In this document: positions 4,375-15,514 of the stretch, in pieces
How positions within the stretch are numbered: the stretch's first letter is position 1
How the letters are laid out: the number at the start of each line of letters is the position of its first letter
NCBI GenBank assembly: GCA_016790435.1
Contig: JAEUPE010000279.1
Location: forward strand, 1-44,993
Direction: 5' to 3'
DNA length: 44,993 bases
From: Rubrivivax sp.
GTDB lineage: Bacteria > Pseudomonadota > Gammaproteobacteria > Burkholderiales > Burkholderiaceae_C
Made by a program: the position numbers and the translations under genes
Notes under the pieces: model-generated
What the model was told of the DNA's origin: nothing
Databases searched by the model: none
The model's input: the letters and a program-made list of their open reading frames with translations, nothing else

Positions 4375-5106
4375 TCAGGCAGCCGCCTGCGCCTGCCGCC
4401 GCAGATGCTCCATCAACTTTCGCGCGCTCGCCCCCAGGGTGCCTTCACCGCGCGCCACCACGACAAACCGCCGCCCGGCCCACGCATCCGCCAGCGGCAC
4501 CATCGCCAGGCCGGCCGATTGCGCGAACGGCGCCGTCGCCTCGCGCGGCAGGATCGCCAGGCCCAGGCCCGCGGCCACGATGCGGCAGGCCGAGTCGAAG
4601 CTCGCGATCTGGATGCGGTAGGCGAGCGTGGTGCCCAGGCGCGCCGCCTCGCGCTTGAGCAGCAGGTCCATCATGCCGCCCGGCGCGACGCCGATCGCCG
4701 GATGCGCCAGCGTCTGCTCGAAGTGCAGGCGGCGGCGCCTGGCCAGCGGGTGCGTCGGATGCAGCACCACGCACAGCCGGTCATGGCGGTAGGGCACGGC
4801 GAGCAGGCCCTCAGTCTCGCTGGCGTCCCACAACACGCCGATGTCGGCGGCACCTTCGCGCACGCTGCGCAAGATCTCGCTGCTGACCCGTTCGTCCAGC
4901 GTCACGCGCACCTTCTCGTGCTGCGCCAGGAAGGCGGCGATGTCGTCGGGCAGCTGCTCCGCCAGCGCCGAGACGCTGGCCAGCACGCGCACGCTGCGCT
5001 GCAGGCCGGCCGCGAACTCGGTCAGCTCGGCCTCGGTGCGCGCCAGCGCCGAGAGCACCTCGCGCGCCTGGCGCAGGAGCATGCCGCCGATTGTGGCGGC
5101 GGCCAC
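4375..5106 (-). pseudogene. LysR-type regulator lacking its DNA-binding domain
   Basis: About 243 residues matching only the linker helix and effector-binding domain of a LysR regulator. After the remnant ALTGQAAG (the region that in intact members ends the winged helix, usually LTPAG) come the linker helix LLRQAREVLSALARTEAEL and the substrate-binding blocks VRVTLDERVSSEILRSVREGAADIGVL, HPLARRRRLHFEQTLAHPAIGV and VAAGLGLAILPREA. The roughly 60-residue N-terminal helix-turn-helix is missing: an in-frame TGA lies a few codons upstream and the next gene follows. The listed start is a GTG without a clear ribosome site. Unless a small protein is still made as a decoy, this is a broken gene. It may be the lost regulator of the catabolic operon at 13.6-17 kb, which lacks an intact one. 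Confidence 0.75.
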
Positions 5107-5186
5107 GCCTGCAGCCTGGCCGGTGAGGGCCGCGTGTCAGGCCCGAAAGGTTGCAGGCCGCCAGCCTGCGTGCCACCGTGGACGGG

Positions 5187-8100
5187 TCACTTGCCTGTGC
5201 ACACTTCCTCCAGCAGGAGGTTCGTGGGCGCCGCCTGGAGCACGAGGTCGCCCAGCGTCTTGGGTGAGTTGGGCTCGCCCACGGCAGTCGCCTTGTTGTT
5301 GCTGCCGAGGTAGCAGGTCGCGGCGCCCTTCGGGCACCCGGTGTTCGTGCTGAACTGGAACTGTGCCTTGCCGGTGTTCGTCAGCGTCCAGGCGTGTTCC
5401 GTGCTCGTGCGCCGGAGGTACAGAAGCATCGGGTCTCCCGCCGTCGGCGCGCCCAGCCGCGTGCAATAGCCGGCCGGGGCCGCGGAGCAGTCCCGCACGG
5501 TCTCGATGTAGTACTGGCTCGCGCTGCCCGGCACCTGGCGCAGGCGCAATACGAGGTCCCACATCGGGAGCCGGCCCGCCGTTGTGCTGGCATGCAGTTT
5601 CTTGTCCAAGAAGTACAGCTGCGCGTTGTTGCCGAGCTCCGCGTTCAGCACGTTCGGCGTCGAGACGTAGTCGAACGCATCGCCACCCGCCGCCTTCGGC
5701 CGCGCGATGCGAACGGTCGCGCCCGCCAGGTTCTTCAGCGCGCCGCACGCGGCATCGACCAGGATGACGATCGACTTGGAGGTCGACCCGGCATAGGCCC
5801 CGTCGCCCTGGTACTCGGCCTGGAAGATGTTGGTGCCCGGCTCCAGCTTCAACACATACGCACCGCCGTCTTCGGCGCGCGTGCTGCAGCCGCTGCCTGC
5901 CGGCGCAGGGAACCGCACCACGTTGGTGGCGTTGTTGCAGTTGCCCTTCTGGTTGAGTTCGGTGCTGCTCGCCACCTTCACGCGCTTGTCGTCCTTGCCC
6001 ACGCGGTACAGAGTCAGGGTGCCGCCCGGTTGGATGGCGCCGCCAGACTCCTGCCGCACCAGGTCGCTCGCCACCTTGGCCGTCAAGGTGAAGAGGCCGT
6101 CCTTGCCCTCCCAGCTGAGCGCCGTGGCCGTCGGCAGCCTGGGCACGGTCTCGGGCGGCCGAAGGCCGGCGTAGCCGGTGGCCACGGCATCCGAAAGCGT
6201 GTCGTAGCCACCGCCCTTGCCGGAGGAGGGTGCCACCGACTTGCCCAGATTCACCGCAAACTTCTGGTTCAGGACGGTGGGCGCGAGAGCAGCGTTGATC
6301 GGCCTCGGGTCGAGCTTCACATCCACGGCCAGCGTGCCGTTGCCCTGCCTGAGCAGGCCGTCGAAGGCCACGCGGTCGACGGACACGATCGATGCGGCGC
6401 CGGAAACATCCTTGACCACGTTCTCGAGTTGCGTGAGGAAGCCGTTCCAAAGATCTTCCGAGGCCTTGCCGGCTTGTTCGGCGGCGGCCAGCGTCGCCCA
6501 CTTCGCTTCGGCGCGCCCCCACCTCTCGATGTCGCCGGCCATGGCCTTCAACCGGTCGGCGGCGCTGGCCAGTTCCTCGGCCGCCTTCGCCGCACCGCCG
6601 GCCAGCCGCCTGCACGCCGGGTCGCTGCCTTGCAGGCAGGCTTCGGCATTGCTCACCACCTGCAGCAGGCCGCGGTAGGCTTCGCCGACATCCTTGTTCA
6701 GCTTGTCCGCTTCGGCCTGGGCGTCGGCCAGTGCCTTCTGCGAGGGCCGTTTGGCATTGGCCTCGGCGCGCCGGGTCCTGGCCTTGGGCTGCAGGGCCAC
6801 GGCCAGGCCCTTAAGGATCTCCTTCCTGAGAGCCGCCGTGTCGGCGCTGGCCGCCAGGCTCAGCTTGAAGTCGGCCGTGTCGGCCAAGGTGGCCGTCGGG
6901 TTGCCTCTTGCACCCACCGACGCGGCCTGCAGGCGGGCCTTGAAGAAGTCCGAGAGCGCTGCATCGGCGTCGAACCGAACGCCGTCCTTGCTGAAGTTGA
7001 CGACGAGGTCGCCCTCGGCGAAAGCAAGCTTCGCGCCGCCATTGATCCTGAATCGCGTGCTTGCGATGTTCTCCGGGCTGGTCGGCATCGGCGCGGCCAC
7101 GTCGACCTTGGCACTGTTCAGGCTGAAGACGTTGCCGAAGTTGAAGCTCTGGATGTTGCCGCCCAGCCAGAACCCCTTGTCCAGGTTGAAGCCGCTGTCG
7201 GTGGCGGCGAGCAACTGGCCCATGAAGCTCACCGCCCCGGCCAGCGCCGCGCCCATGCCGGCGTTGGCCGGCAGGTCGCAGGTGAGCCCGGGGGTGACCA
7301 GGTAGAACCGGGCCCGGTCCACCGTGGGCAGAGGCACGCCGGTGAGGGCCTCACCGACCACCTTGCCCTTGAGCGCCCCGATCGGTTGGCCACCCGAGGC
7401 CAGCTTGCTCATCGCACTGCCGGCCGGGCTGTTGGCCGCGAACTGGACGAGGCCGTTCACGAGCCTCAGCACCACGGCGGGGTCGAGCGTATCGGCTTCG
7501 AAGCGCAGCCCTGCGGCGTCGATGACCGGCACGCCGGTTCCCAGCGTCGCGTTGATGCACAGGAGCGTGTTCTTGAAGGCCGTCGCACCGTTCACCGCCA
7601 GCCCACCCTGAACGCCCAGCCCGAGGCTCGAATTGGTGTCGATGGACATGGTGATGCCGCTGCCCTGCTTCAGCGAGGCCCCCTGCAGCGTGAGCGGGTT
7701 GACCCATGGCTTCTCTAGCGTGCCCGTCATCGCGAGCGCGCCGGTCTGGGTTTCGATGGCGAGCTTGCCCTTGAAGGCCTGCGCTTCCTGGCCGTCCAGC
7801 GGCACGTCGATCGACGCATCCACGCCCAGTTGCAGCCCCTCCGCCGACCTGTAGCTGAAGTAGAATGAAGAATCCCTGAACTTCCAGTTGGCCAACCGCA
7901 GTGCCGTGCCGTCGAGAGCCGCCGCCAGAGCCAGCGACTCGGCGGTGAATTCGCCGCCGAGCAGCATGTCCGGCAGCCTCAGGGGCGAATCCTTGTGGAT
8001 GCCGAGGTCCCTCGCCGACACTTTCGACCAGATGCCCAGGCCTTGGCCGACGGGGAAACTGTCGGGCAGCTTCAGACCCTCCGCCAGGCGGCTGAACATC

Positions 8101-8795
8101 TGCTGCACGGGCTGCGGCTGATCTGCCAGTCTGGCGGTGGCCACGGCCCCAGTGCCACTGTTGAACACGAGCACGGGTTGTCGCAACGTGGGCAGCCTGG
8201 TCGGCGACTTCGGATTGACCAGTTTCTGCAGATCGACTTCGCCGGTCTGCACGAAAACCGTGACGCGGGTGTTGGCCGTCGTGACCACCGCATTGCCGCT
8301 CCATGCCGGAGTGCCCTGCGAAGCGCCTTGGCCCGAGACATAGGCGAGCTTCGTGCCGGGCCGGTAGCCGAGTCTCGGGCGGCTCAAATGCAGGTTGTCC
8401 AGTCCCTTGGGCATGCCACCGACCAACGTGCCGGCATTGAGCGCGGCGCCGAGCTCGAGCCACACCTCTTCCAGGCCGGCACCGTCGCCCTTCGAACCCA
8501 GGGTGCCCGAAGCGGCTTGGCCACCGACCGTGAGATCGGCGGTGATCGCACCGGTGGGCTTGCCATCCACGCCCACAGCGACGCTCAGGCGGTTCACGGC
8601 GAGACCCTTCAAGCCGAAGGCGTCGGCCTTGTTGAGGGTCATCTGCAGCCGGGCAGGGTTCGATCCCTGCACCTTGATCCATGGGGGGGTCTGGATGCCC
8701 AGGGCCTGGGTCAACGCCGTCCCCGCGTCGGCGGCCAGCGCCGGGGGCAGGAACAGGCACATCGCGACAGCGGCGAAGAATCGACGTAGGGCCAT
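5187..8795 (-). CDS. Large exported protein with coiled coil and Ig-like domain, function unknown
   Basis: A 1202-residue protein from the ATG at 8795 (an in-frame GTG lies three codons earlier). Residues 1-21 are a signal peptide ending ALA, so it is exported. Residues 25-660 form many short amphipathic beta-strand segments rich in Gly, Ala, Leu and Thr, suggesting repeated beta-structure. Residues 670-800 are strongly helical and Ala/Glu/Lys-rich, likely a coiled coil. About 890-1015 resembles a bacterial Ig-like domain (ATALSWEGKDGLFTLTAKV...FQAEYQGDGAYAGSTSKSIVI). Residues 1020-1202 contain WTLTN-type segments and several Cys, perhaps a beta-trefoil-like module. No enzyme motif was seen. 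It could be a surface, adhesion or lipid-transfer protein. It stands alone with its own upstream region. Confidence 0.75.
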   Translation of the reverse strand: MALRRFFAAVAMCLFLPPALAADAGTALTQALGIQTPPWIKVQGSNPARLQMTLNKADAFGLKGLAVNRLSVAVGVDGKPTGAITADLTVGGQAASGTLGSKGDGAGLEEVWLELGAALNAGTLVGGMPKGLDNLHLSRPRLGYRPGTKLAYVSGQGASQGTPAWSGNAVVTTANTRVTVFVQTGEVDLQKLVNPKSPTRLPTLRQPVLVFNSGTGAVATARLADQPQPVQQMFSRLAEGLKLPDSFPVGQGLGIWSKVSARDLGIHKDSPLRLPDMLLGGEFTAESLALAAALDGTALRLANWKFRDSSFYFSYRSAEGLQLGVDASIDVPLDGQEAQAFKGKLAIETQTGALAMTGTLEKPWVNPLTLQGASLKQGSGITMSIDTNSSLGLGVQGGLAVNGATAFKNTLLCINATLGTGVPVIDAAGLRFEADTLDPAVVLRLVNGLVQFAANSPAGSAMSKLASGGQPIGALKGKVVGEALTGVPLPTVDRARFYLVTPGLTCDLPANAGMGAALAGAVSFMGQLLAATDSGFNLDKGFWLGGNIQSFNFGNVFSLNSAKVDVAAPMPTSPENIASTRFRINGGAKLAFAEGDLVVNFSKDGVRFDADAALSDFFKARLQAASVGARGNPTATLADTADFKLSLAASADTAALRKEILKGLAVALQPKARTRRAEANAKRPSQKALADAQAEADKLNKDVGEAYRGLLQVVSNAEACLQGSDPACRRLAGGAAKAAEELASAADRLKAMAGDIERWGRAEAKWATLAAAEQAGKASEDLWNGFLTQLENVVKDVSGAASIVSVDRVAFDGLLRQGNGTLAVDVKLDPRPINAALAPTVLNQKFAVNLGKSVAPSSGKGGGYDTLSDAVATGYAGLRPPETVPRLPTATALSWEGKDGLFTLTAKVASDLVRQESGGAIQPGGTLTLYRVGKDDKRVKVASSTELNQKGNCNNATNVVRFPAPAGSGCSTRAEDGGAYVLKLEPGTNIFQAEYQGDGAYAGSTSKSIVILVDAACGALKNLAGATVRIARPKAAGGDAFDYVSTPNVLNAELGNNAQLYFLDKKLHASTTAGRLPMWDLVLRLRQVPGSASQYYIETVRDCSAAPAGYCTRLGAPTAGDPMLLYLRRTSTEHAWTLTNTGKAQFQFSTNTGCPKGAATCYLGSNNKATAVGEPNSPKTLGDLVLQAAPTNLLLEEVCTGK

Positions 8796-9352
8796 GGGTG
8801 CCACCGTAACGGCTGCAGGCCTGGGCGTCTATCGGGCGCCTAGCCCGAGCCCTGGTCCCGGGACCCTTGTCGGGACCGGGGTGTCGCCGGTCATGGCCGA
8901 CGAGTTGCGCCGCCAGCGCGAACACGAAGTGGATGCCGCGCAGGCGGCAAGGGCCGGCTCATCCGGCCCAACGTTGGCGAGGGCTGCGTGAGGCCGAGGC
9001 AGCAGCCCTCTCCCCCGCTACGGGTGCGCGGCGCGGTACTCCGAGCGTTTCGCGCGGTGCGCCACGACGCGTTCTGCCGCGCCGACTACGCCGCGCTTCT
9101 GGTCGCGCAGCGCCCGCTTCAGGCGATCGCGCAGGACATGAAGCCGGGTCCGGTGCTTGTGAGCGGCGATGGCGTTGGACATGCAGGCCTTGGAAAGAGT
9201 GGAAGGAAGTGCAGTCTTCCCACCGGCGCACGCGTTCGTCTGTGCGCTACCGCGCACAAGCGCTGGAAAGGCCCCAGCCCGTTGTCATCAGGCGCGGATG
9301 CGGCCAAGCGAGGCCTGAGGAGCAGGCTGACGCGCAGCGCTTGGAGACGTCT
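8796..9352. other. Intergenic region with inverted repeats
   Basis: About 550 bases with no well-supported gene. Next to the start of the large exported protein, 8854-8865 is a perfect palindrome GGTCCCGGGACC, and its left arm also pairs with CGGGACC at 8871-8877. The region must carry the promoter of the exported protein gene. A doubtful small reading frame is listed separately. Confidence 0.45.
9018..9182 (-). CDS. Possible small basic protein, doubtful
   Basis: A 54-codon frame from ATG 9182 giving MSNAIAAHKHRTRLHVLRDRL and continuing as a very Arg/Lys/Ala-rich peptide. No family is recognised and there is no good ribosome binding site. It is the only short frame in this spacer with an ATG start and protein-like N terminus, but high GC makes chance frames common. 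Confidence 0.2.
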   Translation of the reverse strand: MSNAIAAHKHRTRLHVLRDRLKRALRDQKRGVVGAAERVVAHRAKRSEYRAAHP

Positions 9353-11002
9353 CTAGGGCTTCGGCGTCGGCGAGGCCACGGCGATGTGGGCGAGCAAGGC
9401 GTCGTAGAAGTGCAGGTGCTTCAGGCGCTCGGGCGGCGGCGGAATGGGCGGGCCCTCGATCGGCACCGGCGCGATGTCGGGTGGCCGATCGGCCTCGCCG
9501 CGCTTCAGCGCCAGCGCATAGTCGATCTCCTTGGCCACCCAGGGCGAAGCCGCGGCCGCGGTCGACCAGAACAGCAGCACCACGTCGCAGTGGTCGATCT
9601 CGCGGTACAGTTCCTTCTCCCAGCGCTGGCCGGGTTCCAGGTCGAGCACGTCCTGGAACACCGAGATGCCGGCGATGCGAAACGCCTGCACCCGCCGCAG
9701 CACCTCGGCGCGGTCTTTCGAGGAGTAGGAGACGAAGGCGCGGTGGTAGCGCTTCACCTCCGCGCCGGCGTCGCGCGCCGGCTGAGTGTCGGCCGCGTCC
9801 GCCGCCACGGCCACCTGGAAGCGCAACGTGCCGATGGGCACGCCGGCCACGGCAAGTCGCACGCGACCGATGGTGTTGCCCAGCGGCGCGGTCGCGGGCA
9901 CGGTGACCTCGAACTGCGCCGCACAGGTGCGGCCCGTCCACACCAGCGCCGCATCGGGTTCTTGCACCTGCAGCGTCATCTCGAGGTTCAGGTCGATGCG
10001 CGTGCCGAGCGGCAGGTCTGGTGGCAGGGCCAACACGCCCCGGCGCTGTGCCGCGGCGTCGGCCTCCAGCGCGCGCTCCCGGGCCTCGGCGGCGCGCTCG
10101 GGTTCGTGGAGGAACACCTGCACCAGGAAAGCCGTGGCGCGGGCGACGACGGGCGGGCAGAAGACCGCAGCGTCTCCGGGCACGGTGCCGGGCACCGCCG
10201 CGGGGGCGGAGGCAGGCGCGGCAGCCAGCGGAGCGGGCAGGCCGGCCTCGGGCGGCGTTGGCGGTTGCCCCGCACCGGGCGAGGGGATCGACAGGGTGTC
10301 GGGCCCGGCGCTCGCCTCGGGGGGCGGCTCGGCACCCGCCGCAGGCGCTTCGTCCTCGATGAGCTCGCTGCGATAGGTCGACCCGCCGCGCTCTGCGGCA
10401 TGGTCGGCGCACAGCACTGCGATCTGCAGCACGCGCAGGCGTTCGGCCGCCGCTCGCATGGGCGGCACCAGCAGCGACACCAACTCGCCGATCCAGCGCG
10501 ACGGCGGCGTGCGCGAGATCACCCAGGCCATCTGTGCATCGTCCAGCACCGAGTGCCCGGTGCGCACGGCGGCGAATGCCTCGTCGACCTCTTGCGGCGA
10601 AGGTGCTGACGGCTCCTCGTCGGCGGGGCCGGCCGGCGGCAGGCCCTCGGCATGGGCGGGCAGGCGGCCGGTCTGCGATGGGTCGCCCGCGAGCGCCAGG
10701 GCATCGGACACGGCGGCACAGGCGGGGTCGCCGGCGTCGGCCGCGATGGCGCGCAGGGCGAGGCGCGTCGACTTCAGCGGCACCCGCGTCGCCAGCGCCA
10801 GCAGCCCGGCGCGCTCCGGCGACTCACGGGCGAGCGACGAGGCCGCCGCACCGAGGGCATCGCCCACGCTGCGCCAGGCTTCCTCGCTCAGTGTCAGGCG
10901 AGTGGCCACGTCGAAGGCGGCATGGCGCACGGCGGCATCGGGGTCGGTACGGGCCACCTCGAGCAGGGGCGCGAGGGTGCCGCTGTTGACGCGCTTCTTC
11001 AT
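9353..11002 (-). CDS. TIR-domain protein with helical N-terminal and beta-sandwich-like central region
   Basis: A 549-residue protein with three parts. Residues 1-200 are helical and HEAT-repeat-like (PDAAVRHAAFDVATRL; later PSRWIGELVSLLVPPMRAA). A Pro/Ala-rich linker spans 210-275. Residues 277-402 form a beta-rich module (VFCPPVVARATAFLVQVFLHEP through VTVPATAPLGNTIGRVRLAV). Residues 418-545 are a TIR domain with box 1 FVSYSSKD (423-430), ISVFQD, CDVVLLFWS and SPWVAKEID, whose Glu492 is at the position of the catalytic Glu of TIR NAD-hydrolases. No membrane segment is seen, so it should be cytoplasmic. It starts four bases after the stop of the CHAT gene, so the two are co-translated. NAD cleavage or signalling upon a trigger is the likely role; this is inferred. 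Confidence 0.85.
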   Translation of the reverse strand: MKKRVNSGTLAPLLEVARTDPDAAVRHAAFDVATRLTLSEEAWRSVGDALGAAASSLARESPERAGLLALATRVPLKSTRLALRAIAADAGDPACAAVSDALALAGDPSQTGRLPAHAEGLPPAGPADEEPSAPSPQEVDEAFAAVRTGHSVLDDAQMAWVISRTPPSRWIGELVSLLVPPMRAAAERLRVLQIAVLCADHAAERGGSTYRSELIEDEAPAAGAEPPPEASAGPDTLSIPSPGAGQPPTPPEAGLPAPLAAAPASAPAAVPGTVPGDAAVFCPPVVARATAFLVQVFLHEPERAAEARERALEADAAAQRRGVLALPPDLPLGTRIDLNLEMTLQVQEPDAALVWTGRTCAAQFEVTVPATAPLGNTIGRVRLAVAGVPIGTLRFQVAVAADAADTQPARDAGAEVKRYHRAFVSYSSKDRAEVLRRVQAFRIAGISVFQDVLDLEPGQRWEKELYREIDHCDVVLLFWSTAAAASPWVAKEIDYALALKRGEADRPPDIAPVPIEGPPIPPPPERLKHLHFYDALLAHIAVASPTPKP

Positions 11003-11006
11003 GGTC

Positions 11007-13364
11007 TCACCGAAAGTCGCCGGTGAGGCTGAACGCCGCCCATTGCTGCAGCGAACCGGCGCTGTGGTCGCCGTGCAGCAGCTCGAGCATCGTGTCGCGG
11101 AACGCGGCGGCGCGAGGCTGCTCGTCGTCGATCCAGCGGCTGTAGAAGCGCGAGAAGAACCGCGCCGCGGCCGAGGCGCTGACTTCCCAGTGGGTCGAGA
11201 TGAGGCTGGTGGCGCCGGCCTGGATGAACGCCCAGTCGAGCCCGAGCGTGTCGCCGGCGATGCCTTCCCGGGCCAGTCCGCTGACGCAGGCCATCATGGA
11301 GACGTGGCTGCCCGCCAGGTCGAGTCCGGCCTCGAGGATGCCGGCCGGCGTGAGCTTGCCAGCGTGCTGGCCGCGCTCCAGCCGCAACGGTTCGGGCAGG
11401 CCGTGATCGTCCGCCAGCAGCAGGAACGACTCGCGGTATGGGTTGCCGCCCTGCGGCGGGAACCACCCATGCGTCGAGAAGTGCACGACGCGACGGGCGA
11501 GCGCCTCGCCGGCCAAGCGTGCCGGCGTGGCCTCAGCCAGGCGGATCGACCGGCCGTCCAGCCCGTGATCGGCCAGCCACTTCGGTGGCGCGTCCAGGTT
11601 CTTCAGGAAGGCTTCGGCACCGGGACCCTGCAGGTCGCCCTGCATCGGCACCACGACGCCAATGAACGCGGCGGGCGCAGCGGTCGGTGCGCGGTCGAGC
11701 AGGCGCTGGAGGTGAAACGCCGAGTGCACACGGGAGACGGAGAAGTGATCGAGCAGGATGCCGCTGCCGAACGCCAGATAGTGCAGCGGCACGTTGCTGA
11801 AGTCGTCATCGGACGAATAGCACAGGTGATCGCCGTCCTCGACCACGCCCTGCGCGCGCAGCTCCGCGAGCCAGGCCACCATCGGCGCGAGCTGCGTCGG
11901 CGGCGTGGGGGCGCCGGCCTTCCATGCCGCCGGCCCCACGCGGGCGGCGGCCGCGCGCAGGTCGGTGTCGCTGATCGGCACCGGCGCCGGGGTGTGCAGC
12001 GTTCCCTGCTTGCTCACCAGCACGGCGTAGGCGCAGGACTCGTCGACGAAGAACGTGAGGTAGTGGAAGCGCTCGCGCCGGGTGAGCTCGGGCAGCCGCG
12101 CCACGTCGCGGTAGGTGGCCGCATCGTCCATCACCTGGCCCGATGCGGCGGTGAGGCGGTCGGCGATGACGCGACCCTTCGAGGACTCGACGGCCTCGAG
12201 CAGCTCGGCGGTGCGACCGCTCTTGTGCAGCTGCTCGCACAGCGCGTTGAACAGGTAGCGGTAGGCGCTGAAAACGCCGCCGCGCCGCATGGGGTCGCTG
12301 ATGCCGCGGCGCAGGCGCTCGAGGCCGCCGCGCAGCGCGATCAGCGCATCGGCCGCCAGCCCCGCCTGCCCGAGGCGGTTGTTGCACAGGTAGATGCCCC
12401 ACAGCGCGTCGTGCTCGTGCTCGGCGATGCCCGCCTTCCGGGCCTCGGCGAGGCTGGCCTCGAGCTCGCCGAGCGACCGTCGGATCGTGTTCGCGTCCGG
12501 CTTGCCGTGCACGAAGATGGCCGTCGCGTTGCGGATGCGGGCGCGCAGCGCGATCTCGGAGCCACCGCCGGCGCCGCGCATCAGCAGCTGCTCGCCCTGG
12601 CTCAGCAGGTCGAGCAGGCGCTTGTGTTGTGCGGGGTCGGCGGGGTCGAGGCGGTTGGCGGGGTCGAGCTGCTGGCGCACCGCGGCGCCCAGTTCGCCCA
12701 TGCCGCCGAGCTCGAGCACCTTGTTCAGCATCGCCTGCATGCTCGACGCCGACGGCCCGGCGGGCGCGGGTTGCCACTCGGCGCGGGTCTGCGTGGCGTC
12801 GGCGCGGTACTGGTCGACCCAGCGCTTGAGGCGCTGCGCCTCCATGCCGTTGACCGGGTCGTCGAGCAGCGCCTGGTCCTTCAGCGCCGCCTCGGCCTCG
12901 TCGGCTCGACCGAGGTTGACCAGGGCGTCGACCCGCAACACCTTCAACGTCGAGAGGTTCTCGCGCTCGTTCATCTGCTCGTAGAGCGGCAGGTATCGGG
13001 CCGTGGCAGCCAGCACCTCGGCCGAGCGCCCGAGCTGCGCCAGTGCGCGCACGTGATGGCAGGCCAGGCCCGACAGCGTCGTCGGCAGCAGGCCGTGGTC
13101 GGGAACCGTGCGCGCGATCTCGAGGGCCCGCTCGTGCGCCGCATCGGCCAGCACGGCACCGAGTTCGGGGTGGCTGCCGAAGCAGTATTCCTGGATCAGC
13201 GGCGTGATGGCCACGACCACCATGCCCGGATTGCCGGAGCCGAACAGGCCCGCCGCACTGTCCTTGAAGCTGGCTGGGGGCAGCTGGGCCAGGAACGCCG
13301 CGCGTTCGGCAGGAGTTCCACTCCTCAGCAGCCCCAGCACCTGCTCTTTGGTGGGCGGCGCCAT
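11007..13364 (-). CDS. TPR-CHAT protein (caspase-like protease)
   Basis: A 785-residue protein. Residues 1-400 are alpha-helical with TPR-like pairs (ALEIARTVPDHGLLPTTLSG, RVDALVNLGRADEAEAAL, LWGIYLCNNRLGQAGLAADAL). About 430-785 is a CHAT (clan CD, caspase-like) domain: FHYLTFFVDESCAYAVLV, then VVHFSTHGWF with His632 and SHVSMMACVSG with Cys693 forming the expected His/Cys dyad, then the usual end SLISTHWEVSASAAARFFSRFY. AAGGA lies seven bases before the ATG at 13364, which fixes this start. The frame stays open upstream to a TTG at 13502, adding a hydrophobic stretch. First gene of a two-gene operon with the TIR protein. The likely role is a protease activated by a signal sensed through the TPR part; the target is unknown. 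Confidence 0.88.
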   Translation of the reverse strand: MAPPTKEQVLGLLRSGTPAERAAFLAQLPPASFKDSAAGLFGSGNPGMVVVAITPLIQEYCFGSHPELGAVLADAAHERALEIARTVPDHGLLPTTLSGLACHHVRALAQLGRSAEVLAATARYLPLYEQMNERENLSTLKVLRVDALVNLGRADEAEAALKDQALLDDPVNGMEAQRLKRWVDQYRADATQTRAEWQPAPAGPSASSMQAMLNKVLELGGMGELGAAVRQQLDPANRLDPADPAQHKRLLDLLSQGEQLLMRGAGGGSEIALRARIRNATAIFVHGKPDANTIRRSLGELEASLAEARKAGIAEHEHDALWGIYLCNNRLGQAGLAADALIALRGGLERLRRGISDPMRRGGVFSAYRYLFNALCEQLHKSGRTAELLEAVESSKGRVIADRLTAASGQVMDDAATYRDVARLPELTRRERFHYLTFFVDESCAYAVLVSKQGTLHTPAPVPISDTDLRAAAARVGPAAWKAGAPTPPTQLAPMVAWLAELRAQGVVEDGDHLCYSSDDDFSNVPLHYLAFGSGILLDHFSVSRVHSAFHLQRLLDRAPTAAPAAFIGVVVPMQGDLQGPGAEAFLKNLDAPPKWLADHGLDGRSIRLAEATPARLAGEALARRVVHFSTHGWFPPQGGNPYRESFLLLADDHGLPEPLRLERGQHAGKLTPAGILEAGLDLAGSHVSMMACVSGLAREGIAGDTLGLDWAFIQAGATSLISTHWEVSASAAARFFSRFYSRWIDDEQPRAAAFRDTMLELLHGDHSAGSLQQWAAFSLTGDFR

Positions 13365-13632
13365 CTTCGGTTCCTTCGAGTAAGGGTCAGCCTCGCAGAC
13401 CTGTGTGGTGCAACGGACCGCCGCACTTTGCCCTCGGGAGATGGGACAGGCAAGAGTCAAAGTGAGGACGAGCGCGGCCCCAATTGAGCAGGCGCAGCGC
13501 AAGCGGGTCGAGATGGCACAAGAACATGGCAGGCATTGTGGCGCCGCCCGGCCGCAGCCGTGACGGATTGGAACGACGCCGGTTCCGAAATGGCGCTGGC
13601 GCGCCGGCGCGGAATGGCTGAAGCTGCGGGCC
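13365..13632. other. Divergent promoter region of CHAT-TIR and catabolic operons
   Basis: The only spacer from which both divergent operons can be transcribed. On the minus strand it also contains an open extension of the CHAT frame (13365-13502) coding for a Cys-rich hydrophobic peptide. No consensus promoter was recognised. Confidence 0.45.
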
Positions 13633-14427
13633 ATGGAGACCCTCAGCACGATGGCCAGCACCCTGGCGGGCACGATGACAAGCACCCCCCGCGCCAGCGT
13701 GCGCGAGGTGGGCCTGCGCGACGGGCTGCAGAGCATCGCGCGCACGCTGCCCACCGAGATCAAGCTGCAGTGGCTGCGCGCCGCACACGCAGCGGGCCTC
13801 AACGAGATCGAGGTCGGCTCGTTCGTGCCGCCGCGCCTGCTGCCGCAGCTGGCCGACACGGCCGAGCTGGTGCGCGAGGCGCTGGCGCTGCCCGGGCTCA
13901 CGGTCTCGGTGCTGGTGCCCAACCTGAAGGGCGCCGAACGCGCCATCGAAAGCGGCGCGCACGCGATGCTGCTGCCGCTTTCGGCCAGCCACGCGCACAG
14001 CGTGGCCAACCTGCGCAAGGCGCCGGACGACGTGGTGCGCGAGATGGGCGAGATCCGCCGCCTGCGTGATGCTTCGGGCTCGCGCTGCCTGCTCGAGGTG
14101 GGCCTGAGCACCGCCTTTCGGCTGCACGATCCAGGGCCGCGTGGAGCCCGCCGAGGTGCTGCGCCTCCTTCGCGCCGTGCTCGACGCCGGTGCCGAGCGC
14201 GTGGGCCTGGCCGACACCGTGGGCTACGCCGACCCGCGCCAGGTGCGCGAGCTCTTCGAGCGGGCCTTCGAGGTCGCCGCGCCCTTCGGCGCCTCGACTT
14301 CGACGCGCTGATGGCCCTGCGCACGTCGGTGGCCGGCTGGCTGGAAGGCGAGCCACTGCACGGGCACATCTGGCGCGCCGGGTTGCCGAAGACGATGCGG
14401 CTGGCGCCGGCACGGGAGGCCGCATGA
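13633..14427 (+). pseudogene. HMG-CoA lyase-like enzyme with frameshift and internal deletion
   Basis: The first 160 codons read as a normal HMG-CoA lyase-family protein: VREVGLRDGLQS (catalytic Arg and metal-binding Asp), NEIEVGSFVPPRLLPQLADT, VLVPNLKGAERAIESGAHAM and CLLEVGLSTAF. At about 14117 one extra T shifts the frame; the next stretch, in another frame, still reads GCTIQGRVEPAEVLRLLRAV and ERVGLADTVGYADPRQV. Near 14285 about 65-70 residues are missing, including the HxH metal site and the GGCP catalytic-Cys loop, after which the C terminus LDFDALMALRTSVAGWLEG resumes in the first frame. The product cannot be an active lyase. In context the ancestor may have cleaved citramalyl-CoA or a similar CoA ester. 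Its stop overlaps the next start (ATGA). Confidence 0.85.
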
Positions 14428-15514
14428 ACGGCACCGCCGCGCCGCAGCCACTGGCCGGCCTGCCGCATCAGGAGAGCGCAGTCCAGCCGCTGGCCGGGCT
14501 GCGCGTCATCGAGTTCACCCACATGGTCATGGGCCCCACCTGCGGCATGGTGCTGGCCGACCTCGGCGCCGAGGTCATCAAGGTCGAGCCGCTCGAGGGC
14601 GAAGGCACGCGCCGCCTGCTCGGCGCGGGCGCAGGCTTCTTTCCGATGTTCAACCGCAACAAGAAGAGCATCGCCATCGACCTGCACCAGCCCGAAGGTG
14701 CGGCCACGGCGCGCAGGCTGGCGGCCGGCGCCGACGTGGTGATCGAGAAGGCGGCCTCGCCTACATGACCGGCCGCCCGGGCGACCCGCTGCGCGCCGGC
14801 ACCAGCATCAACGACATCATGGGTGGCCTGTTCGGCGCCATCGCCGTGCTCGGCGCGCTCATCCAGCGCGGCATCAGCGGCCGCGGCATGGAGGTGCAGA
14901 GCGCCCTCTTCGAGAACAACGTCTTCCTCGTTGGCCAGCACATGCTGCAGTACGCCGTCACCGGCAAGGCCGCGCAGCCGATGCCGGCGCGCGACAACCC
15001 CTGGGCCGTGTACGACGTGTTCACGGTGAAGGGCGGCGAGCAGATCTTCCTCGCCGCCGTGAGCGACGCGCAGTGGAAGACCTTCTGCGACGTACTGGAC
15101 CTGCCCGACCTGAAGGCCGACCCGGCGCTGGCCACCAACAACGACCGGGTGCGCGTGCGTGCGCGGCTGCTGGCCACGCTGCGCGAACGCCTCGCACCCC
15201 GCACGGCGGCGGAGCTCACGTCCATCATGGAGCGCGCCGGCCTGCCGTACGCGCTCATCCGCAAGCCCGAGGACCTCTACGACGACCCGCACCTGCAGGC
15301 CACCGGTGGCCTGGCCGACGTCACCGTGCCCGACGGCGAGCGTGCCGGGCAAACGGTGAAGACGACGCTCTTCCCTATCACGCTGGCCAGCCAGCGTCTC
15401 GGGGTACGCTTGCACCCGCCGCGCAAGGGCGAGCACACGCTGGTGCTGCTCGCAGGCCTGGGCCTGGCGCCGCAGGAGATCGAAAGGCTCGTCGCGCAGG
15501 GCGTGGTGGCCTGA
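14424..15514 (+). pseudogene. Family III CoA-transferase with internal deletion
   Basis: The N-terminal part is typical of CaiB/BaiF (class III) CoA-transferases: GLRVIEFTHMVMGPTCGMVLADLGAEVIKVEP, FFPMFNRNKKSIAIDL and a Rossmann-like start. At 14750/14751 the sequence jumps from ADVVIEK to what should be GGLAYMTGRPGDPLRAGTS in another frame. About 50-60 residues, holding ENFRPG and the region up to the conserved ALDEV segment, are gone, and the first frame ends at a TGA in the jump. From 14765 the rest (SINDIMGGLFGAIAVLGAL, RGMEVQSALFEN, LPYALIRKPEDLYDDPHL) is intact to the end. Not functional as one chain. The ancestor would have moved CoA between a dicarboxylate and succinyl-CoA or a similar donor, feeding the lyase upstream. 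Confidence 0.85.

Follow-up and report, generated by a model that had tools for sequence, protein, structure and literature searches.

Caspase-fold proteases and TIR enzymes are established executioners of cell death, and the wiring between the two differs among systems. Among the closest described is type IV Thoeris, for which Rousset et al. (2025) is reportedly the primary paper. It encodes a TIR enzyme and a caspase-fold protease together, as described in the available part of PMC12847820. Canu combines a caspase-family protease with a nuclease that is encoded alongside and that the protease activates, and the prototype has three genes (PMC12799240, available part); in type III-E systems, a CHAT protease cleaves Csx30 (PMC10952713, available part). 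TIR/caspase neighbourhoods as such are also known, because the available part of PMC8195603 describes fusions of TIR with NPCBM domains whose neighbourhoods include genes for AP-ATPases and caspases. We analyzed a stretch of 44,993 nt from a Rubrivivax sp. (contig JAEUPE010000279.1 of GCA_016790435.1, a draft assembly that is 80.8% complete in 302 contigs; this whole stretch, G000:C93, is hereafter the window), in which a gene for a CHAT-domain protease (P0001) adjoins a gene for a TIR protein (P0002). Both genes are intact and tightly spaced, their catalytic positions are kept among relatives, the C-terminal core of the TIR protein is recurrently linked to CHAT, and the pair lies at a variable site. 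Judging from sequence, a joint function of the two enzymes is probable, with cell death or defence as a conceivable setting, and our verdict is that the pair belongs to the known protease/TIR two-enzyme systems as a variant arrangement.

The window pair shares its co-encoded TIR enzyme and caspase-fold protease with type IV Thoeris as the available text presents it, but its protease is a CHAT protein (PF12770) with no recognised nucleotide-binding part, and its TIR protein carries an unnamed module. Membership of Thoeris was rejected, as ThsB_TIR gave 18.8 bits against 21.2 and Thoeris_type3_ThcB4 gave 33.5 against 220, both below the cut-off; the PADLOC ThsB models, which have no cut-off, match only the TIR stretch of P0002. 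Compared with Canu, again as far as the available text describes it, the pair likewise places a caspase-fold protease beside a co-encoded effector, but the effector is a TIR protein and not a nuclease, the protease is CHAT, and there are two genes. Canu membership was rejected accordingly, since Pfam finds TIR and no nuclease family in P0002. With Craspase (Csx29, the type III-E TPR-CHAT protease, and Csx30), the pair shares an N-terminal region followed by CHAT and an adjacent partner gene, but no TPR was found in the window CHAT protein; membership was rejected because the NCBIfam Csx29 model scored 11.1 bits (E = 0.13), below its cut-off of 300. No Cas gene occurred among the window genes scanned with Pfam, a scan that included no CRISPR search. 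Neither the pair nor the module was present among the matches listed in literature searches on CHAT with TIR, TPR-CHAT, TPR-S and TIR with caspase-like proteins or Thoeris, which cover few subscription journals. A 2020 survey in J. Bacteriol. is said to describe TPR-S, and links between CHAT and TIR could already be in print there.

The CHAT–TIR gene pair

All features of the pair lie on the minus strand. The CHAT gene (positions 11007 to 13364; 785 aa), supported by its open reading frame (ORF), Pfam and codon-position GC, starts with ATG and has AAGGA upstream. Its CHAT domain (aa 501–783, positions 11016 to 11864; PF12770, E = 4.3e-30) scores 105.6 bits against a curated cut-off of 24 and carries the dyad His632 (in VVHFSTHG) and Cys693 (in SMMACVSG). 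The TIR gene (positions 9353 to 11002; 549 aa) begins 4 nt past the CHAT stop codon, with GACC between this stop and the TIR ATG, and in both frames the codon-position GC is consistent with coding sequence. In the TIR protein, a Pro/Ala-rich linker (aa 210–275, positions 10178 to 10375), recognized from the sequence and from the composition of 18 relatives, precedes the unnamed module (aa ~270–415, positions 9758 to 10195), which alignments show to be conserved with TIR as a C-terminal core. The TIR domain follows (aa 423–534, positions 9401 to 9736; PF13676, TIR_2, E = 7.6e-22, 78.5 bits against a cut-off of 28), with Glu492 in SPWVAKE at the position associated with NADase activity. The catalytic Glu is present in 18 of 18 aligned TIR rows, and all 14 of the CHAT rows aligned keep both residues of the dyad, so that a loss of catalytic residues among relatives, which would have counted against the earlier reading, did not appear.

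A previous sequence-only reading had described two adjacent minus-strand genes 4 nt apart with these catalytic residues, and both the placement of the ORFs and, by residue check, the three positions proved correct. Its TPR label did not survive, since no Pfam TPR family was found in P0001 at E up to 1, and TPR-CHAT was rejected as a name for this protein. The N-terminal part of P0001 belongs to no known Pfam family. PADLOC gave zero matches for P0001, and for P0002 matches over the TIR stretch only; nothing in NCBIfam came near a cut-off for either protein. By sequence, P0001 had no relative in PDB at E = 0.1, and the three weak PDB matches of P0002 all fell on its TIR stretch.

The module itself represents a domain of ~140 residues without significant coverage by any Pfam family (best E = 0.035 among 18 members), and its PDB matches were weak (E = 0.03–0.2). 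These values did not confirm the beta-sandwich that had been claimed for aa ~275–405 from the sequence pattern, and this fold is retained here as a proposal.

Linkage of the module–TIR core to CHAT

The C-terminal ~270 residues of the TIR protein, namely the module and TIR, define a family, in which alignments and the tree place P0002 with the module directly before a C-terminal TIR. All rows with the module have TIR behind it, most having been found by queries that included TIR. Our genome searches scored only the best first-look candidates (2–17 per genome), and more core loci may exist. In the genus search (81 genomes, up to 17 candidates scored in each), 31 genomes including the window's own matched at E = 0.001, and 36 of 38 non-own places were analyzed (G1172:C464 and G1418:C8 were left out), giving 14 with module and TIR and 22 with TIR only. 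Including the window, there are thus 15 core loci in 15 genus genomes; the match at one of them, L207, contains an in-frame stop.

In the order (300), phylum (349) and class (321) samples, with the best 4–8 candidates scored per genome, no genome besides the window's own, G553 and G016 matched through the module. One match in the order sample, in G177, starts at residue 371, on the module edge, and the module profile finds nothing in its locus, L004. Phages gave no match to the TIR protein, viral contigs gave one TIR-only relative, and 198 genomes centred on a Streptomyces contig gave none at E = 1e-10 in a search without a positive control. Plasmids yielded a single TIR-protein relative at E = 1e-10, and module-only queries returned that same relative. 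The window core is 48.5% identical to that of an Allocoleopsis plasmid protein, 57% and 59% to those of L197 and L199, 53% to that of a G553 protein and 31% to that of a G016 protein. In the core tree, the window groups with L197, L198, L199, G553, Allocoleopsis and G016 (support 91/98, the internal order being unresolved); the G016 branch is very long, and the rows nearest to the window by path are L197, L198 and L199.

CHAT lies in cis at 7 of the 15 genus core loci, and three unlike architectures join it to the core: the window operon, two single-chain fusions, and four TIR/PAS-GAF/CHAT clusters. In the fusions (L197 of G1191, 2307 codons, and L199, 1845 codons, both from stop to stop, the latter cut by the contig end), Pfam recognized LCAT-like, CHAT and TPR-S regions in one open frame with a Pro-rich linker and module–TIR. 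These proteins resemble the window system in combining CHAT with the same C-terminal core, but they use a single frame, include a lipase-like region, carry a CHAT of another subgroup and are non-homologous in their other regions. In the clusters (L200, L201, L202 and L203, whose TIR proteins have N-termini of no Pfam family), a CHAT gene lies downstream of the TIR gene with one gene between (Pfam E = 1.4e-17, 1.3e-16, 1e-16 and 4.3e-14, respectively). The middle gene of L201 encodes PAS and GAF domains according to Pfam; in the other three, it was assigned from a like start after the TIR stop, and the gaps between the TIR and middle genes are 10–15 nt at the four junctions. Because L200 comes from a one-contig genome (G1402) given as 100% complete, its cluster is not a draft artefact.

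We compared this frequency with two backgrounds. CHAT was found at 1 of the 22 TIR-only loci, which at 6–17 kb are shorter than most core loci, giving a Fisher P of 0.004 for 7/15 versus 1/22, uncorrected for shared ancestry. The CHAT profile is an independent screen on the TIR-only loci, but it was built partly from CHATs that it then finds at core loci, where the positives rest on Pfam; it found 5 of the 6 other CHAT loci of the window's own genome and missed the weakest, L238. The own assembly (5.39 Mb) has 7 CHAT matches, which corresponds to a chance of ~1.3% per locus within 5 kb on either side, whereas 3 of six tree groups, as we drew them, have CHAT (binomial P = 4e-5). These statistics are rough, as CHAT density differs between genomes and some tree groups are weakly supported. 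The profile found no TIR gene within 8.5–12 kb of the 6 other own-genome CHAT loci.

At the single positive TIR-only locus, L215 (G1429:C78:24500-38500), a lipase-like/CHAT gene overlaps a TIR gene without the module that is ParA/MinD-like by eye (5974-13999, minus strand). Its lipase-like/CHAT protein is 54% and 51% identical to those of L197 and L199, and we would count it as a further CHAT–TIR link and not as background, even though the adjoining TIR lacks the module. Beyond the genus, a small CHAT gene of G016 lies 1.6 kb away from its TIR gene on the other strand, and ORFs that look transposase-like by eye stand between the two; around the G553 gene, whose protein has a hydrophobic segment by eye, the profile found no CHAT in 19 kb. 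The Allocoleopsis protein has a TIR-like N-terminus by eye, and two TIR_2 stretches are reported for it. Its plasmid has two genes with a caspase-family annotation. The closer one, whose caspase domain Pfam confirms, is encoded on the opposite strand, 0.9 kb downstream of the TIR gene and separated from it by two genes; the phylum of Allocoleopsis is rich in caspase-family genes.

It had been asked in the sequence-only reading whether the pair would be neighbours elsewhere. This holds for the TIR core with any CHAT, which we found at 6 more genus places (two in a single frame) and in G016, but homologues of both window genes were not seen side by side. No full-length relative of the window CHAT turned up in two overlapping draws of 398 and 200 genomes, in which the best 2 and 5 candidates of each genome were scored, and a BLAST search with P0001 at E = 1e-5 hit no other CHAT protein at the genus loci that were fetched. 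Together with the unrelated 1205-aa gene on the same island, this distance between the CHATs could suggest that two unrelated accessory genes landed at one variable site by chance. The 4-nt spacing and the repeated linkage of CHAT to one TIR core, twice within a single frame, argue against such coincidence, which we consider very improbable. We also rejected a fused ancestor that was later split, as hhalign finds no homology between the stretch after CHAT in L197 and L199 and the N-termini of P0001 or P0002 (probability 0.1% each, from a weak two-sequence profile). Because P0001 misses the other CHATs and the flanking stretches are not homologous, separate pairing events appear likelier than one split or fused ancestor.

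Among plasmid CHAT genes, the closest to P0001 (about 29%) is found on a Rhizobium plasmid (L092, 6861-9799; NZ_CP016290.1). Its neighbour, a gene for 247 aa that belongs to no known family, overlaps it by 4 nt, forming another CHAT-plus-partner pair, and the surroundings contain genes annotated as nucleases.

Direction and purpose of the pairing

As a tentative reading, to which we assign somewhat less than an even chance, the pair would be a two-enzyme module running from protease to TIR, in which the core hydrolyses nicotinamide adenine dinucleotide (NAD) to stop growth. The CHAT protease and the TIR enzyme would act in one complex or pathway, with variable N-terminal parts sensing a trigger (infection or stress). 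Activated CHAT would then act on its co-encoded TIR partner, via cleavage or proteolysis-dependent assembly, and the conserved module–TIR core would serve as the executioner. We placed this direction first because the logic of the type III-E CHAT protease with Csx30 and that of Canu favour it; the direction, NAD cleavage, growth arrest and an anti-phage purpose are what we infer. With similar hesitation, the core might be regarded as a plug-in executioner that was coupled several times to CHAT in one genus, that is, a recurrent protease–NADase death module. If so, proteolysis and NAD chemistry would be wired together inside one complex, through neighbouring genes, a PAS/GAF-linked cluster or a single chain with a lipase-like region, and one genus holding all three forms would provide a natural series for asking which enzyme acts first.

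Several observations weigh against a protease-to-TIR module. The core is also joined to other N-termini, namely LRR (L198 and L205), protein kinase (L204) and FHA with receiver (G016), all by Pfam, and still others, and no CHAT was found by profile at the other 8 of the 15 genus core loci (L198, L204 and L205, whose neighbours were part-scanned with Pfam, and L207–L211). CHAT is not required by the module–TIR family, because of these other N-termini and the 8 loci at which none was found. In addition, the CHAT proteins of different pairs are not close relatives, many loci come from draft assemblies, and the neighbours of the window pair included no identified defence gene. The fused proteins, which hold protease and TIR in one chain, are compatible with either direction. 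Pro-rich linkers precede the core also in members in which no CHAT was found (L198 and L204). Cutting of the Pro/Ala linker by CHAT to free TIR, as previously proposed, therefore gains little and is only one of several options; the idea that the linker is a specific protease site was rejected, since such linkers are not confined to CHAT-linked members. A defence role was likewise not established, as PADLOC has no match to the CHAT protein and the L200 and L201 clusters sit downstream of oxidoreductase genes.

The five congeners L207–L211 have no Pfam N-terminal family. Their N-terminal start (e.g. MRKEATALYVVPWMPPTLRI in L208) is one that we take to be PilT-like, and several of them adjoin a hydantoinase/oxoprolinase-like ORF by eye.

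The earlier direction was also not singled out by precedent, as type IV Thoeris, a known TIR/caspase system, runs the opposite way (PMC12847820, available part). In that manner, the TIR protein of the pair would sense the trigger and make a nucleotide from NAD, and this messenger would activate CHAT as the executioner. The catalytic Glu in all 18 rows, this precedent and the Pfam TPR-S (Tetratricopeptide Repeats-Sensor) region between CHAT and the TIR core in L197 and L199 are consistent with such a reverse order. However, P0001 shows no known nucleotide-binding domain in Pfam, PADLOC or NCBIfam, no ThsB or Thoeris model that has a cut-off reaches this value with the TIR protein, and two enzymes joined in one chain have less need of a messenger that diffuses. 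We regard the reverse order as doubtful.

It is also conceivable that the enzymes signal without killing, with module–TIR acting as an assembly scaffold and a regulator being trimmed by CHAT, as part of a circuit for stress or development. The PAS/GAF gene adjoining the TIR gene in L201, the kinase–module–TIR gene of L204 (G1436) near GGDEF/histidine-kinase-type, KaiC-type and Crp-type genes, and the FHA and receiver domains and LuxR-type regulator of L134 (G016:C1:5000-24000) point in this direction. Against it, the window copy sits in an insertion at a variable site, and the L134 copy shares its stretch with genes for an integrase, a patatin and a DUF4062-STAND protein. We consider this possibility unlikely. 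Patatin is known from defence. DUF4062 proteins act in phage defence, according to the available part of PMC13174449.

Insertion site and flanking genes

We compared the site among congeners using the CoA-transferase gene beside the pair as query; 24 of 41 drawn genomes matched at E = 1e-40, and 12 places were fetched. The pair lies with a neighbouring 1205-aa gene in a variable stretch of 8.4 kb (positions 5090 to 13485) that interrupts a LysR-type gene. At 9 of these places the alignment covers both flanks, the LysR-type gene and the HMGL-like gene, and the LysR match is absent from L169, L171 and L172. In 8 of the 9, the flank matches are 150–380 bp apart and the site is empty, which agrees with the variable genome position suggested earlier; in the remaining one (L161, G1201), the flanks are 5.2 kb apart and enclose other cargo. 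By eye, this cargo (L161, 10250-15400) comprises EF-hand, response regulator, histidine kinase and lipoprotein-like ORFs. P0001, P0002 and P0003 had no match at any of the 12 places.

The broken genes that the sequence-only reading had seen around the pair were recovered as well. Outside the system, the LysR-type regulator gene (positions 4375 to 5106, minus strand; PF03466 only) lacks its N-terminal part when compared with congeners, and its start region is left at about 13486-13530, immediately ahead of the CHAT gene and in the same orientation; transcription of the pair may now come from the former LysR promoter. Compared with three congeners, the genes for the HMGL-like protein and the CoA-transferase (13633-15514) are short by ~200 and 149 bp, which would reflect either decay after the insertion or an assembly error.

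The 1205-aa protein (5187-8804, minus strand) begins with a signal-peptide-like segment and matches an Ig-like family weakly, and its gene is absent from the same 12 places. We rejected positions 8976-9270 as a repeat or mobile element, as there was one own-genome match (18 of 139 candidates scored) and, elsewhere, one 87% copy at the same site in G1201, a partial copy in G1169 and only short matches in 11 more of the 41 genomes drawn. A 54-codon ORF (MSNAIAAHKHRTRLHVLRDRLKRALRDQ...; 9018-9182, minus strand) lies in this stretch, which in G1201 is 87% identical in DNA at the same site and occurs there without CHAT–TIR.

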